Shown one piece after another: positions 15,838 to 56,290 of a stretch of DNA of 64,000 nt; position 1 is the first letter of the stretch, and each line of letters begins with the position of its first letter. The notes under the pieces are model-generated. The model ran no database searches. It was not told the origin of the DNA and saw nothing but the letters and a program-made list of their open reading frames with translations. The translations under genes and the position numbers were made by a program. The DNA lies in NCBI RefSeq assembly GCF_036195045.1, contig NZ_CP108100.1, forward strand, positions 1,426,001-1,490,000, given 5' to 3'. This stretch comes from Streptomyces sp. NBC_00236. GTDB lineage: Bacteria; Actinomycetota; Actinomycetes; Streptomycetales; Streptomycetaceae.

Positions 15838-16818
15838 ATGACGACACCGCCCTCCTCCGCCACCCCTCCGGAACACCGTGACTGGCGGGCCACGGCCGCC
15901 GCCTGCACCACCGTGATCCTCTGGGCCTCCGCCTTCGTCTCCATCCGCAGCGCGGGCGAGGCCTACTCCCCCGGCGCGCTGGCCCTCGGGCGGCTGCTGG
16001 CCGGCTCCCTGGCGCTCGGCACCCTCCTGCTGCTGCGGCGGGAGGGTCTTCCCTCACGGGCGGTCTGGCCGGGGATCCTCTGGTCGGGGCTGCTGTGGTT
16101 CGGCCTGTACATGGTGGTGCTCAACTGGGGCGAGCAGCAGGTGGACGCCGGGACCGCCGCGATGGTCGTGAACATCGGGCCCCTGCTGATCGCCCTGCTC
16201 GGCGCCCGGCTGCTCGGTGAGGGGCTGCCGCGACGGCTGCTGCTGGGCATGGGCGTGTCCTTCGCGGGCGCCGCGGTGGTGGGGCTCTCCATGTCGGGTC
16301 ACGGGAGTTCCTCGGTGCTGGGGGTGCTGCTCTGCCTGCTGGCGGCCGTCGCGTACGCGGGCGGAGTCGTCGGCCAGAAGCCCGCGCTCCGGCACGGCTC
16401 GGCGCTCCAGATCACCACGTTCGGCTGCCTGGTCGGCACTGCGGCGTGCCTGCCGTTCGCCGGCGCGCTGGTCTCCGACGCGGCCGACGCACCCCTGTCG
16501 GCGACCCTGAACATGGTCTACCTGGGCATCTTCCCGACCGCGCTGGCCTTCACCACCTGGGCCTACGCGCTCGCGCGCACCACGGCGGGCCGGATGGGCG
16601 CCACCACCTACGCGGTGCCGGCACTCGTGGTGCTGATGTCGTGGCTGCTGCTGGACGAGGTGCCCGCGCTGCTCACCGTCACCGGCGGACTGCTCTGCCT
16701 GGCCGGGGTGGCGGTCTCCCGGAAGCGTCCGCAGACTGGTGCGACGCGGAAGAATCCCGCCCAGCCGGTGGAAGGAACCCCTCATGACGCGGAGCGCCAA
16801 GCAGCGGACCGGCCGTAG
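15838..16818 (+). CDS. EamA/DMT-family transporter
   Basis: The 326-aa protein has about ten hydrophobic helices in two EamA halves, with the family pattern ILWASAFVSIRSAGEAYSPG early and YLGIFPTALAFTTWAYALAR in the second half. DMT exporters move metabolites or amino acids out of the cell; the substrate here is unknown. The C-terminal 35 residues are charged and run beyond the last helix, and their coding DNA overlaps the PPK2 start by 35 bases. The two genes are therefore co-transcribed and probably coupled. Confidence 0.88.
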   Translation: MTTPPSSATPPEHRDWRATAAACTTVILWASAFVSIRSAGEAYSPGALALGRLLAGSLALGTLLLLRREGLPSRAVWPGILWSGLLWFGLYMVVLNWGEQQVDAGTAAMVVNIGPLLIALLGARLLGEGLPRRLLLGMGVSFAGAAVVGLSMSGHGSSSVLGVLLCLLAAVAYAGGVVGQKPALRHGSALQITTFGCLVGTAACLPFAGALVSDAADAPLSATLNMVYLGIFPTALAFTTWAYALARTTAGRMGATTYAVPALVVLMSWLLLDEVPALLTVTGGLLCLAGVAVSRKRPQTGATRKNPAQPVEGTPHDAERQAADRP

Positions 16819-17701
16819 GAAGGCGAAGGGGGCCGCCGGGTCTGCGGTGCTGGTGGCGCCGGGCCTGGCCCGTGACGCCTGGCGCGAGGACTACCCGTAC
16901 ACCTCCAAACTCGGCCGCAAGGCCTACGACACGTCCAAGCGGGCCCTGCAGATAGAGCTGCTCAAGCTCCAGCACTGGATCAAGGAGCACGACGAACGGC
17001 TCGTCATCCTCTTCGAGGGGCGCGACGCCGCCGGCAAGGGCGGCACCATCAAACGGTTCACCGAGCACCTCAATCCGCGTGGTGCGCGGGTGGTGGCACT
17101 GGAGAAACCCACCGAACGCGAGCGCTCCCAGTGGTACTTCCAGCGGTACGTGGCACATCTGCCGGCCGCCGGGGAGATCGTGATGTTCGACCGGTCCTGG
17201 TACAACCGGGCGGGTGTCGAGCGGGTGATGAACTTCTGCTCGACGTCCGAGTACCTCGAGTTCATGCACCAGGCCCCGGGGTTCGAGCGGATGCTCGCCC
17301 GTGACGGCATCCATCTCGTGAAGTTCTGGTTCTCCGTCTCGCGCGACGAGCAGCGCAGGCGGTTCATGAGCCGGCAGACCGATCCGGTGCGGCAGTGGAA
17401 GCTGAGCCCGGTCGACCTCGCGTCGCTCGACAAGTGGGACGCGTACACCGAGGCCAAGGAGCTGATGCTCTTCCACACGGACACGGCGGACGCTCCGTGG
17501 ACCGTGGTGAAGAGCAACGACAAGAAGCGGGCCCGGCTGGAGGCCATCCGGCACGTCCTGCACCGCTTCGACTACCCGGACAGGGACGCGGCGGTGGCCG
17601 GGGAGCCGGACCCGCTGATCGTGGGTCCGGCCTCCCGGCTCTTCGAGCAGGGTGAGACCGAGGCGGGGCGGCTCACCGCAGGCCGGCCGGAAGACGGCTA
17701 G
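16784..17701 (+). CDS. Polyphosphate kinase 2 (PPK2)
   Basis: The 305-aa PPK2-family protein should transfer phosphate between polyphosphate and nucleotides. It shows Walker A GRDAAGKGGT (about residues 80-89), Walker B/lid FDRSWYNRAGVERV (about 142-155) and the SRDEQRRRF, PVRQWKLSP and WDAYTEAKELM motifs. ATG 16784 follows GGAAGGAA and lies inside the EamA gene. The stop TAG is built from a TA plus the first base of a MITE-like element, and before insertion it overlapped the stop of the convergent alcohol dehydrogenase gene. Confidence 0.92.
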   Translation: MTRSAKQRTGRRKAKGAAGSAVLVAPGLARDAWREDYPYTSKLGRKAYDTSKRALQIELLKLQHWIKEHDERLVILFEGRDAAGKGGTIKRFTEHLNPRGARVVALEKPTERERSQWYFQRYVAHLPAAGEIVMFDRSWYNRAGVERVMNFCSTSEYLEFMHQAPGFERMLARDGIHLVKFWFSVSRDEQRRRFMSRQTDPVRQWKLSPVDLASLDKWDAYTEAKELMLFHTDTADAPWTVVKSNDKKRARLEAIRHVLHRFDYPDRDAAVAGEPDPLIVGPASRLFEQGETEAGRLTAGRPEDG

Positions 17702-17914
17702 GGCGTGTTTCGGAAGTAGCGCCGTCCGCCCGGAGGGCGGGCTCGGCGGCGTCTGGTGCGTGCGATCGCAAGGCGGAGGGTCGCCCCGATACTGGTTGTA
17801 TCGGGGTGATCCCGACAACGCGGCGAGCAAGGGGGCCTCCCCTGCTCGAGCGAAGCCGAGAGCTCGGGGAAGTGCCAGGCGTCGCCGAGCAGGCGGGACT
17901 TCCGAAACACGCCC
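17701..17914. mobile_element. MITE-like element, 214 bp, copy 1
   Basis: The element has perfect terminal inverted repeats starting GGGCGTGTTTCGGAAGT (17701-17717 and 17898-17914) and is flanked by TA on both sides (17699-17700, 17915-17916), as for IS630/mariner-type elements. It carries internal inverted repeats such as CCCCTGCTCGAGCG with CGAGAGCTCGGGG and no transposase. A copy of equal length with only a couple of differences is at 55637-55850. The TA plus the terminal G/C of the element supply the TAG stops of both flanking genes. Confidence 0.85.
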
Positions 17915-18993
17915 TAGAAGACCACCAGGGCGCGCCCGCCCTTGCCTGCGATCATGTTGTCGAAGGCCGCCGGGATGCCGTCCAGCGCGATCCGTTCGGT
18001 GACCATCATCGAGAGGTCGAAGCGGCCCGCCCGGATGTGGTCGGCCAGCACCGGCAGATCGCGGGCCGGGTCGCTGTTGCCGTACACACACCCGGTCAGG
18101 GACCTGCCCCAGTGGAAGATCTCCAGGGCGTTGAACGTCACCTGCTGGTCCTTGCCCCCGATGCCGACGACCGTGGTGCGGCCGCCGCGGCGGGTGGATT
18201 CCCAGGCGCTGCGGATGGTGGCGGCCCGGCCGACGCACTCGACGGCCACGTCCGCGCCCTGTCCGCCGGTGAGCCCCCGGATCTCGCGGGGCGTGGTGGC
18301 GGAGGCGATCACGTAGTCCGTGGCACCCGCCCGGCGTGCGAGGTCCTCCTTCTCCGGGGAGACGTCCACCGCGATGATCTTCGAGGCGCCGGCGATCCGG
18401 GCGGCCTGGAGCACGGCGAGGCCGACGCCGCCGATGCCGAACACGACGACGGACTCGCCCGAGCGGACCTGGGCGCTGTGGTGGACCGCGCCGTACCCGG
18501 TCAGCACCGCGCAGCCGAGCAGGGCCGCGTCGGTGAGCGGGATGCCGTCCGGGGCGGGCAGCACGCAGTTGGCGGCGACCACGGTCTCCTGCGCGAAGGC
18601 GGCGACGTTCAGCCCGGGGTGCAGTTCGGTGCCGTCCGCGGTGTGGGCGTGGATGTTCGCCGCACCGGCCAGGGCGTTGACGCAGAGCCAGACCTCGCCG
18701 ATGCCGCAGTGGTGGCAGCTGCCGCAGGACGGTGCCCAGTTGAGGACGACGCCGTCGCCCGGGGCGAGATGGCCGACGCCCTCGCCCACCGAGACGACGG
18801 TACCCGCGCCTTCGTGGCCGAGGACGGCGGGGACGGGCAGCCGCATGGTGCCGTTGGACAGCGAGAGGTCGGAGTGGCAGACCCCGGCGGCGGCAAGGCG
18901 GATGCGCACCTGGCCGGGGCCGGGTTCGGGCAGGGTGATGTCGGTGATCTCCAGCGGAGCTCCGACGGCGGACAGTACGGCGGCGCGGACCAC
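17914..18993 (-). CDS. Zinc alcohol dehydrogenase (MDR family)
   Basis: The 359-aa enzyme should oxidise an alcohol to an aldehyde with NAD. Catalytic-zinc ligands are C39 (GVCHSD) and H60/E61 (GHEGAG). Structural-zinc ligands are C90, C93, C96 and C104. The Rossmann motif GIGGVG follows. The start is GTG 18993, chosen because AAGGAG sits seven bases upstream. It lies 53 bases after the aldehyde dehydrogenase gene in the same direction, so alcohol to aldehyde to acid would be consecutive steps. Its TAG stop abuts the MITE-like element; the protein end appears complete. Confidence 0.93.
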   Translation of the reverse strand: MVRAAVLSAVGAPLEITDITLPEPGPGQVRIRLAAAGVCHSDLSLSNGTMRLPVPAVLGHEGAGTVVSVGEGVGHLAPGDGVVLNWAPSCGSCHHCGIGEVWLCVNALAGAANIHAHTADGTELHPGLNVAAFAQETVVAANCVLPAPDGIPLTDAALLGCAVLTGYGAVHHSAQVRSGESVVVFGIGGVGLAVLQAARIAGASKIIAVDVSPEKEDLARRAGATDYVIASATTPREIRGLTGGQGADVAVECVGRAATIRSAWESTRRGGRTTVVGIGGKDQQVTFNALEIFHWGRSLTGCVYGNSDPARDLPVLADHIRAGRFDLSMMVTERIALDGIPAAFDNMIAGKGGRALVVF

Positions 18994-27344: not shown

Positions 27345-27504
27345 GGGCCTCCCGTTCGCATCCGGCCGGATCAGGGAGCGGGGTCCGGTGCGTGCGGTTG
27401 CAAGGCGGAGGAGGGAGTCACTGCGGAGCGTTGGCGACCGACGACAACACCGCAGGTGCGCGCACCGGACCCCGCGGGCCCGGCACGATCCGAACGAGAG
27501 GCCC
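27345..27504. mobile_element. MITE-like element, 160 bp, related family
   Basis: Terminal repeats start GGGCCTCCCGTTCG (13 of 14 matched at the other end), with a perfect 15-bp internal inverted repeat GCGGGGTCCGGTGCG (27378-27392 and 27461-27475). The element is flanked by CA on the left and TA on the right. About 29 bases (27383-27411) match the interior of the 214-bp elements at all but two positions. No coding capacity is seen. Its last base plus TA forms the TAG stop of the TetR gene. Confidence 0.65.
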
Positions 27505-28124
27505 TACTCCAGTACGCGCGCGAGGTAGGCCCGGAGCAGCACCCGGGTCTCGGCGACGATGGCCCGGTCGCCGGACGGGTCGGTGCGGAACGCGAGTTGG
27601 AGCAGGGCGTCGGCGGCCTCCACGCAGACCAGGATGGAACGCAGCAGATCGTCGTCGGGTTCGCGGTCCAGATGACCGGCGAGCAGTTCGGTGAGCCTGC
27701 CCGCGACGCGCTGGTTGGCGTCGTCGGCCGGGTCCCCGTCGGGCGCGGGGGCTCCGAAGTCGATGAGGGAGAAGCCGGGGACGGCGCTCTTCATCGCCAG
27801 GTACTCGTCGAGTACGGCGTCGATGGCGCCGCGCCAGTCGCCTGCCGGGATGGTGACCAACCGGCCGGTGATCCGCTCGGCGTAGCTGTCCAGGTTACGG
27901 CGGGCGAGGGCGTCGGCGAGGGCCCGCTTGTTGGAGAAGAACCGGTAGACGGAGCCGATGGGAACTCCGGCGCGCACAGCCACGGCCCGGGTGGAGAGCT
28001 GCTCGTAGCCGGTTTCGTCGAGGAGTTCGGCGCAGGCGTCGAGTATCCGGGCGAGGCGCTCGGCGCTGCGCTGCTGTACGGGGGCGCGGCGGAGGTTCGT
28101 GTTCGCATGGGGCACGGGTTCCAT
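27504..28124 (-). CDS. TetR-family regulator
   Basis: The 206-aa protein has a TetR helix-turn-helix (about residues 22-68, QLSTRAVAVRAGVPIGSVYRFF) and a ligand domain containing ILVCVEAADALLQLAF. The stop TAG is at the junction with the MITE-like element. It is co-directional with and upstream of the molybdopterin oxidoreductase, separated by the element and about 120 bases holding a palindrome, so it may regulate that gene. The ligand is unknown. Confidence 0.88.
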   Translation of the reverse strand: MEPVPHANTNLRRAPVQQRSAERLARILDACAELLDETGYEQLSTRAVAVRAGVPIGSVYRFFSNKRALADALARRNLDSYAERITGRLVTIPAGDWRGAIDAVLDEYLAMKSAVPGFSLIDFGAPAPDGDPADDANQRVAGRLTELLAGHLDREPDDDLLRSILVCVEAADALLQLAFRTDPSGDRAIVAETRVLLRAYLARVLE

Positions 28125-55636: not shown

Positions 55637-55850
55637 GGGCGTGTTTCGGAAGTAGCGCCGTCCGCCCGGAGGGCGGGCTCGGCGGCGTCCGGTGCGTGCG
55701 ATCGCAAGGCGGAGGGTCGCCCCGATACTGGTTGTATCGGGGTGATCCCGACAACGCGGCGAGCAAGGGGGCCTCCCCTGCTCGAGCGAAGCCGAGAGCT
55801 CGGGGAAGTGCCAGGCGTCGCCGAGCAGGCGGGACTTCCGAAACCCGCCC
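55637..55850. mobile_element. MITE-like element, 214 bp, copy 2
   Basis: It is the same length as copy 1 and nearly identical (differences seen: T to C near position 55 of the element, and A to C in the right terminal repeat). Terminal repeats start GGGCGTGTTTCGGAAGT. It is flanked by CA on the left and TA on the right. Its last base plus TA completes the TAG stop of the DUF350 gene. It splits an operon. Confidence 0.85.
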
Positions 55851-56290
55851 TAGGAGAGGGCCGCGCCGACCATGACGGCGGTGCCCAGGTACATGCCGGC
55901 CTGGACCCAGGCGGCGGGGTGCGGGCGGTGGTCGTCGCCGTCGTCGAGGGCCACCGCACCCATTTGACCCGGCGTCAGTACGCCGATGACGATGCCGACC
56001 AGCGTCATCACCAGCACCCCGGCCAGACCGTAGAGGAGCGTGCTGAACAGGCCGTAGCCCAGGCCTTCTTCGGACTCGCTGGCCTGGATGGCCGACATGA
56101 TGACCAGCCCGACCGCCAGGGACTGGCTGCCGAGGAGCACGGCCGCGCCGCGGTTGCGGTCCCGCCACACCACGTGGAAGAGCTTGCCGGGCGTGACGAG
56201 GTCGAGGGCGACGAAGCCGACGGCCATCACGGCGAGGCCCACGACCCCGTAGAGCAGGGCCTGCCCGGCCGACTCGAAGATCTCGGTCAC
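55850..56290 (-). CDS. DUF350 membrane protein (YjfL-like)
   Basis: The 146-aa protein has four helices in two DUF350 repeats (LLYGVVGLAVMAVGFVALDL and TLLYGLAGVLVMTLVGIVIG), each followed by a short loop with a proline (LVTPGK, LTPGQ). DUF350 proteins occur in yjf-type operons with PspA and polyamine-related enzymes, suggesting envelope stress; this is inference. The stop TAG is formed where the MITE-like element joins the gene. Confidence 0.9.
   Translation of the reverse strand: MTEIFESAGQALLYGVVGLAVMAVGFVALDLVTPGKLFHVVWRDRNRGAAVLLGSQSLAVGLVIMSAIQASESEEGLGYGLFSTLLYGLAGVLVMTLVGIVIGVLTPGQMGAVALDDGDDHRPHPAAWVQAGMYLGTAVMVGAALS

Follow-up and report, generated by a model that had tools for sequence, protein, structure and literature searches.

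A 214-bp MITE between two convergent Streptomyces genes, probably inserted into the CTAG of their overlapping stop codons with both stops kept

Three described systems come closest to the locus examined here. TnRErm46 of Rhodococcus equi, with ISRe46, targets CTAG, and the part of its description consulted here reports a regenerated TAG that serves as the stop codon of some target genes, which are left uninterrupted (PMC6794481). MITEPsy1 of Pseudomonas syringae is presented, in the corresponding part of its description, as a 100-nt non-autonomous element inserting at CTAG or YTAA (PMC3189936). For the IS427 group of the IS5 family, a 2-bp duplication is given in 10 of the 11 rows of Table 2 available to us, and some members possess two-ORF transposases (PMC3281130).

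The window analysed here is a 64,000-nucleotide stretch comprising positions 1,426,001-1,490,000 of an 8.33-Mb single-contig Streptomyces genome. Within it lies an element that is very probably a MITE without a transposase of its own, which an IS5-family (IS427-like) transposase moved in trans into a CTAG holding the overlapping stops of two convergent genes, with both stops kept.

A gene-free element between PPK2 and an alcohol dehydrogenase

The locus comprises the following features:

16739..17701, plus strand: polyphosphate kinase 2 (PPK2) gene; TIGR03707 above cut-off, start uncertain (gene call: 16784)
17699..17701, plus strand: PPK2 stop TAG, formed by the target TA and the element's first G
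17699..17700, no strand: left copy of the duplicated target TA (empty sites have a single TA)
17701..17914, no strand: MITE with 'F1' ends, 214 bp, no transposase gene called inside
17701..17717, plus strand: left terminal inverted repeat, GGGCGTGTTTCGGAAGT
17752..17827, plus strand: core of 76 nt, common to elements with other ends
17898..17914, minus strand: right terminal inverted repeat, matching the left repeat perfectly
17914..17916, minus strand: alcohol dehydrogenase stop TAG (CTA on the plus strand), formed by the element's last C and the target TA
17915..17916, no strand: right copy of the duplicated target TA
17914..18993, minus strand: gene of the zinc-dependent alcohol dehydrogenase family, its start codon uncertain; zinc alcohol dehydrogenase models match, all below cut-off

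These positions confirm the initial annotation of a 214-bp element with perfect 17-bp inverted ends and a TA on each side, placed between PPK2 and the alcohol dehydrogenase. The stops of the two convergent genes are separated by 212 bp, and each consists of two duplicated target bases and one element base; since the host base to the right of the target is G, TAG was present before insertion. The perfect 17-bp arms become a perfect palindrome of 20 bp when CTA/TAG is added, and continue to 26 nt at 92%. A second in-frame TAG (17717-17719) occurs 18 nt past the PPK2 stop. The whole element is predicted to fold as one hairpin (-156 kcal/mol, z = -10.3). In line with a MITE, it is short (214 bp here, 175 bp in the commonest form), gene-free and bounded by terminal inverted repeats, and it belongs to a set of many dispersed copies with target duplication. 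A search for an Rfam identity returned ivy-DE as the best match at 24.1 bits (cut-off 41.4, E = 0.037), which we regarded as chance.

In this genome, 44 BLAST matches were obtained including the query, among them 11 long copies (seven full length at 95% or above, four of about 180 bp), and a search with the end pattern allowing up to 3 mismatches gave 44 genome matches versus one for the reversed control. Across the genus, a match at E <= 1e-3, often only a partial one, was obtained in 282 of 295 genomes, counting this one; two candidates were scored for each. We examined 63 two-ended copies, comprising 15 from this genome, 15 of 20 fetched and 33 of 40 fetched elsewhere; L014, with a truncated right end, was excluded, one-ended remnants were uncounted, and L320 was left out of per-copy counts given its right flank of 3 nt, so that 62 remained. 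Related flanks were seen in a single pair of copies (L263/L325). The window holds a second copy:

55637..55850, no strand: second copy; the TAG stop of minus-strand gene 55850-56290 is made up of its last C and right TA

The left TA of this second copy is now CA, and a short distance further on is an ATG of the next gene in the same direction.

Empty sites and the fate of the duplicated TA

A search of 392 congeneric genomes with the joined flanks of the element brought up no element-free sister strain. The best four matches among element-free genomes (88-89%) have no insert, and in all of them the stops of PPK2 and the dehydrogenase overlap, at CTAG in G329 and G166 and at TTAG in G204 and G179. 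This alignment supports the earlier proposal that insertion occurred into a CTAG with overlapping stops. The comparison was extended to 22 distinct PPK2-dehydrogenase junctions that are element-free or otherwise different and have a readable PPK2 tail. Overlap was observed in six, namely the four above and the more distant G287 and G066 (CTAG), so that among the more distant junctions alone the stops overlap in 2 of 18; in the other 16, a spacer of 3-126 bp separates the stops, so such overlap is no general feature of the genus. The PPK2 tail differs from one relative to another, the window's (GRPEDG*) resembling that of G204 (GRSEDGA*), and many genomes retain CTAGAA(G/C) at the dehydrogenase stop, even opposite a different gene. 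The exact ancestral junction of the window's own lineage is one that we infer from these relatives, half of the closest empty sites reading TTAG and most of the junctions bearing a spacer. By eye, the same dehydrogenase stop holds other element-like sequences in G149 (L189), G070 (L186) and Streptomyces sp. NBC_01669 (L145), and is possibly a repeated landing site.

Empty sites were also sought for eight other copies in 16 genomes, and seven (all but L007) were aligned. Relatives have a single TA for L004 (versus G329), L006 (versus G070), L008 (versus G329) and L016 (versus G179 and G204), which establishes a 2-bp duplication. The duplicated TA lies mostly at CTAG in these empty sites; that of L008 reads CTAC, not CTAG, and at L016 the relatives G166, G155 and G116 show a TGA junction without TA. 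In the same 16 genomes, no clean empty site on both sides was found for L003, and no spanning relative for L002 and L011. Adjoining elements with different ends were noted at L029/L022 (genome about 2,247,993-2,248,240) and at L014, as expected if every insertion creates a new CTA(G) target.

The empty sites of L004 and L006 reveal which TA copy decayed. Over all copies, TA is kept on 32 of 33 stop sides versus 58 of 87 non-coding sides (p = 2.9e-4), the short flanks of L314 and L320 being among the 87 and six of the 126 sides being excluded for other reading patterns. The sole decayed stop side, at L005, now reads CAG, with read-through to a TAG 18 nt inside the element. Elements of other families were not used for this comparison since the way their ends were found favours TA. 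The unequal decay provides a built-in control for which copy is needed, and we infer that selection lies behind it.

CTAG targets, a transposase partner and rival explanations

As background for target choice we took the window and 40 stretches of 20 kb (864 kb in total) from this genome only, most copies coming from other genomes; genes were called with our own codon-usage script. Outside these elements, this background contains 88 CTAGs, of which 23 are in stops, 56 are intergenic and nine lie in genes. CTAG was strongly depleted in a 464-kb subset of 71% GC, with 39 occurrences versus 207 expected from trinucleotides. Copies lie at a stop in 32 of 62 cases (one decayed), an excess over both TA in general (154 of 8,797 at stops, p = 3e-38) and background CTAG (p = 0.0019), which also holds for this genome alone (9 of 15 copies versus the CTAG background, p = 0.014). 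The initial annotation had attributed the placing of elements at gene ends to TA-targeting in a genome where TA is concentrated at stops. Other copies do sit at stops beyond chance; TA itself shows no such concentration, so a general TA preference was rejected as the source of the bias, and it is CTAG that is both concentrated at stops and targeted.

In a frame-based test that did not require an intact stop, 33 of 35 genes reading into an element edge arrive in stop phase, with one in each other phase, and on all 33 stop sides TAG was already in the target, as judged by the base across the element. No clear preference was seen for the stop side to adjoin the element end with the second TAG. 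Only three of 62 copies (L269, L271, L332) are inside called genes. Convergent neighbours flank 31 of 61 copies, versus 131 of 674 background gene pairs (p = 3e-7), and divergent neighbours only three of 61, yet 23 of the 88 background CTAGs lie between divergent genes; this scarcity suggests the loss of promoter insertions. Shared two-gene stops are exceptional, being found for one of the 62 copies in the main set and for L443, an F1 element of another genome that lies in CTAG with both edges serving as stops. Stops likewise lie at both edges of L414, an F4 element of this genome; its site is CTAC, however, and the TAG of its left gene may have been completed by the element.

F1-like end pairs (at most 4 mismatches) flank nine of 41 IS5-type loci, eight of them distinct (L209 is the same as L277), a proportion biased upward by the finding of 30 of the 41 via the L061 transposase, itself noticed for F1-like ends. 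At these eight distinct loci, 15 of 16 edges come after CTA or TTA. None of 30 fetched DDE_3 (IS630-type) loci has such ends, the two sets of loci having been chosen by different routes. Given the similar ends at eight IS5-type and at no IS630-type loci, an IS5-type transposase is the likely mover of the MITE in trans, as far as end sequences can indicate. This partner would be IS427-like, a putative member of the IS427 group of the IS5 family, and the 2-bp duplication of TA is as for most tabulated members of that group. No IS with ends identical to those of the MITE was found among the loci examined, the IS5-type ends being similar only. For both ORFs of the split L061 transposase, scores against NF033580 (IS5_3) fall short of the cut-off of 110 bits, at 91 and 90. 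L297 is an IS5-type locus with F8-like ends. Four IS5-type loci with F1-like ends (L061, L282, L284, L293) each contain one additional called ORF, different in each and, by eye, SnoaL-like, hydrolase-like, kinase-like and acetyltransferase-like, respectively.

In the proposed mechanism, an IS5-family (IS427-like) transposase would recognise the 17-bp ends of the MITE and insert it at the central TA of CTAG, duplicating TA. With a G at its start and a C at its end, the element would rebuild CTAG at both edges, and where two convergent genes have their TAG stops overlapping in the target CTAG, each gene would retain a stop, with 216 bp gained and no codon lost. Because this 71% GC genome has few CTAGs, most of them outside coding sequence and about a quarter in stops, insertions would be mostly harmless, and selection would afterwards retain the TA copy serving as a stop. 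Direct observations behind this account are the empty sites, the duplicated TA, the overlap of stops in relatives, the enrichment at stops and the unequal TA decay.

Tc1/mariner-IS630 elements also duplicate TA, and DDE_3 transposases are present in 27 of 31 genomes searched, including this one. An origin of the element as a MITE of that type would accommodate the TA duplication seen here, but we consider it very improbable given the contrast in ends between the differently chosen DDE_3 and IS5-type sets. A second alternative is that there was no prior shared stop, PPK2 having ended elsewhere and the element having supplied its stop. The variable PPK2 tails and the spacer present in most junctions would allow this, and L414, with its other ends and CTAC site, may be such a case; at the present locus, the overlapping stops in all four closest relatives, the resemblance of the window's PPK2 tail to that of G204, and the G to the right of the target, which gives TAG without the element, make it unlikely.

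Retention, as opposed to targeting, might also shape the distribution, if elements were kept at gene ends as putative two-way terminators or mRNA 3' stabilisers, which would explain both the stop and the convergent bias. The strong hairpin and the enrichment between convergent genes are consistent with such a role, as is the occurrence of at least two Watson-Crick types at 23 of 55 pairs (58 copies), although a palindromic DNA element also predicts paired changes. CTAG targeting combined with loss of harmful insertions accounts for most of the bias, considering how few background CTAGs lie in genes and how few copies are kept at those between divergent genes, and we regard retention for function as doubtful, if somewhat less so than the two alternatives above. 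Insertion of an IS5-mobilised MITE into a shared CTAG remains our preferred reading.

Related cores with different ends, and comparison with known systems

The 76-nt interior of the element is conserved between families. A covariance model of this core, built from 21 copies, gave 29 matches in this genome and also matched 14 of another 20 genomes (all 11 from the genus, picked partly for carrying the element or similar flanks, and three of nine from outside it). By our own grouping, about ten kinds of ends surround related cores. One such element lies in the window:

27345..27504, no strand: element with a related core and F3 ends, GGGCCTCTCGTTCGGATC, located at the TAG stop of minus-strand gene 27504-28124

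The F3 end-type sequence has many partial matches in other genomes. Among 59 non-F1 elements, including 12 whose end type is unclear, 18 lie at a stop. End type F8 (GTCTGACAAAT) is found on two different interiors. Seven hand-picked element pairs were compared over their outer 17 bp, for which chance gives a mean of 4.9 matches and at most 8 in 95% of cases:

F1-F9: end matches 2 and 2, interior 76%
F5-F3: end matches 5 and 6, interior 83%
F8b-F10: end matches 8 and 8, interior 80%
F10-F5b: end matches 10 and 9, interior 72%
F1-F8: end matches 11 and 10, interior 90%
F5-F5b: end matches 12 and 11, interior 93%
F8-F8b (one end type on two interiors): end matches 13 and 14, interior 64%

From these between-family comparisons, on which any claim of end exchange rests, there may be a superfamily of MITEs of roughly 160-215 bp in which the interior is kept while the terminal 17-22 bp are exchanged at both ends together, parasitising many IS5-type transposases that all aim at TA in CTAG-like sites; we hold the odds for and against it to be about equal. 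Some end pairs, F1-F8 among them, resemble each other more than chance would give, and in the F1 family the core proved no more conserved than the ends (both about 85-94%), which together weaken the case for exchange. Alternatively, ends may diverge faster than interiors, together with their transposases. In L425, L481, L483, L492 and L493 the outer 40 nt are as F1-like as the core, since 40 nt takes in part of the interior. Usually, MITEs have conserved ends and a variable middle; the reverse pattern across families suggests a core function common to all. Related cores with different ends make the switching of transposases by MITEs testable.

In literature searched by titles and abstracts, with few subscription journals covered, no description of these elements was found. 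As far as that search extends, what is new is the MITE form, a two-gene stop checked against relatives, the unequal TA decay and the related core with different ends. The locus provides a concrete, relative-checked case of a mobile element splitting the shared stop of two genes with both left intact, and a simple rule, in which a CTAG target meets an element running from G to C in a genome where CTAG is scarce except outside coding sequence.

That an element targeting CTAG can leave stops intact has previously been described for TnRErm46, which, like the present MITE, combines a CTAG target in an actinobacterium with a regenerated stop (PMC6794481). Unlike the MITE, TnRErm46 is a large resistance transposon with NCTAGN flanking repeats and other ends, and the sections of its description consulted contain no case of a stop shared by two convergent genes, as seen here (PMC6794481). 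MITEPsy1 differs in its 4-nt duplication, its ends and its suggested origin from ISPsy2, and the portion of the article covered reports no effect on stop codons of the kind observed with this MITE (PMC3189936). The IS5-type elements of these genomes have ends similar to those of the MITE and the CTAG site in common with it. IS5/IS427 elements, as described in the part of the source available, are autonomous insertion sequences, whereas the MITE is gene-free (PMC3281130).
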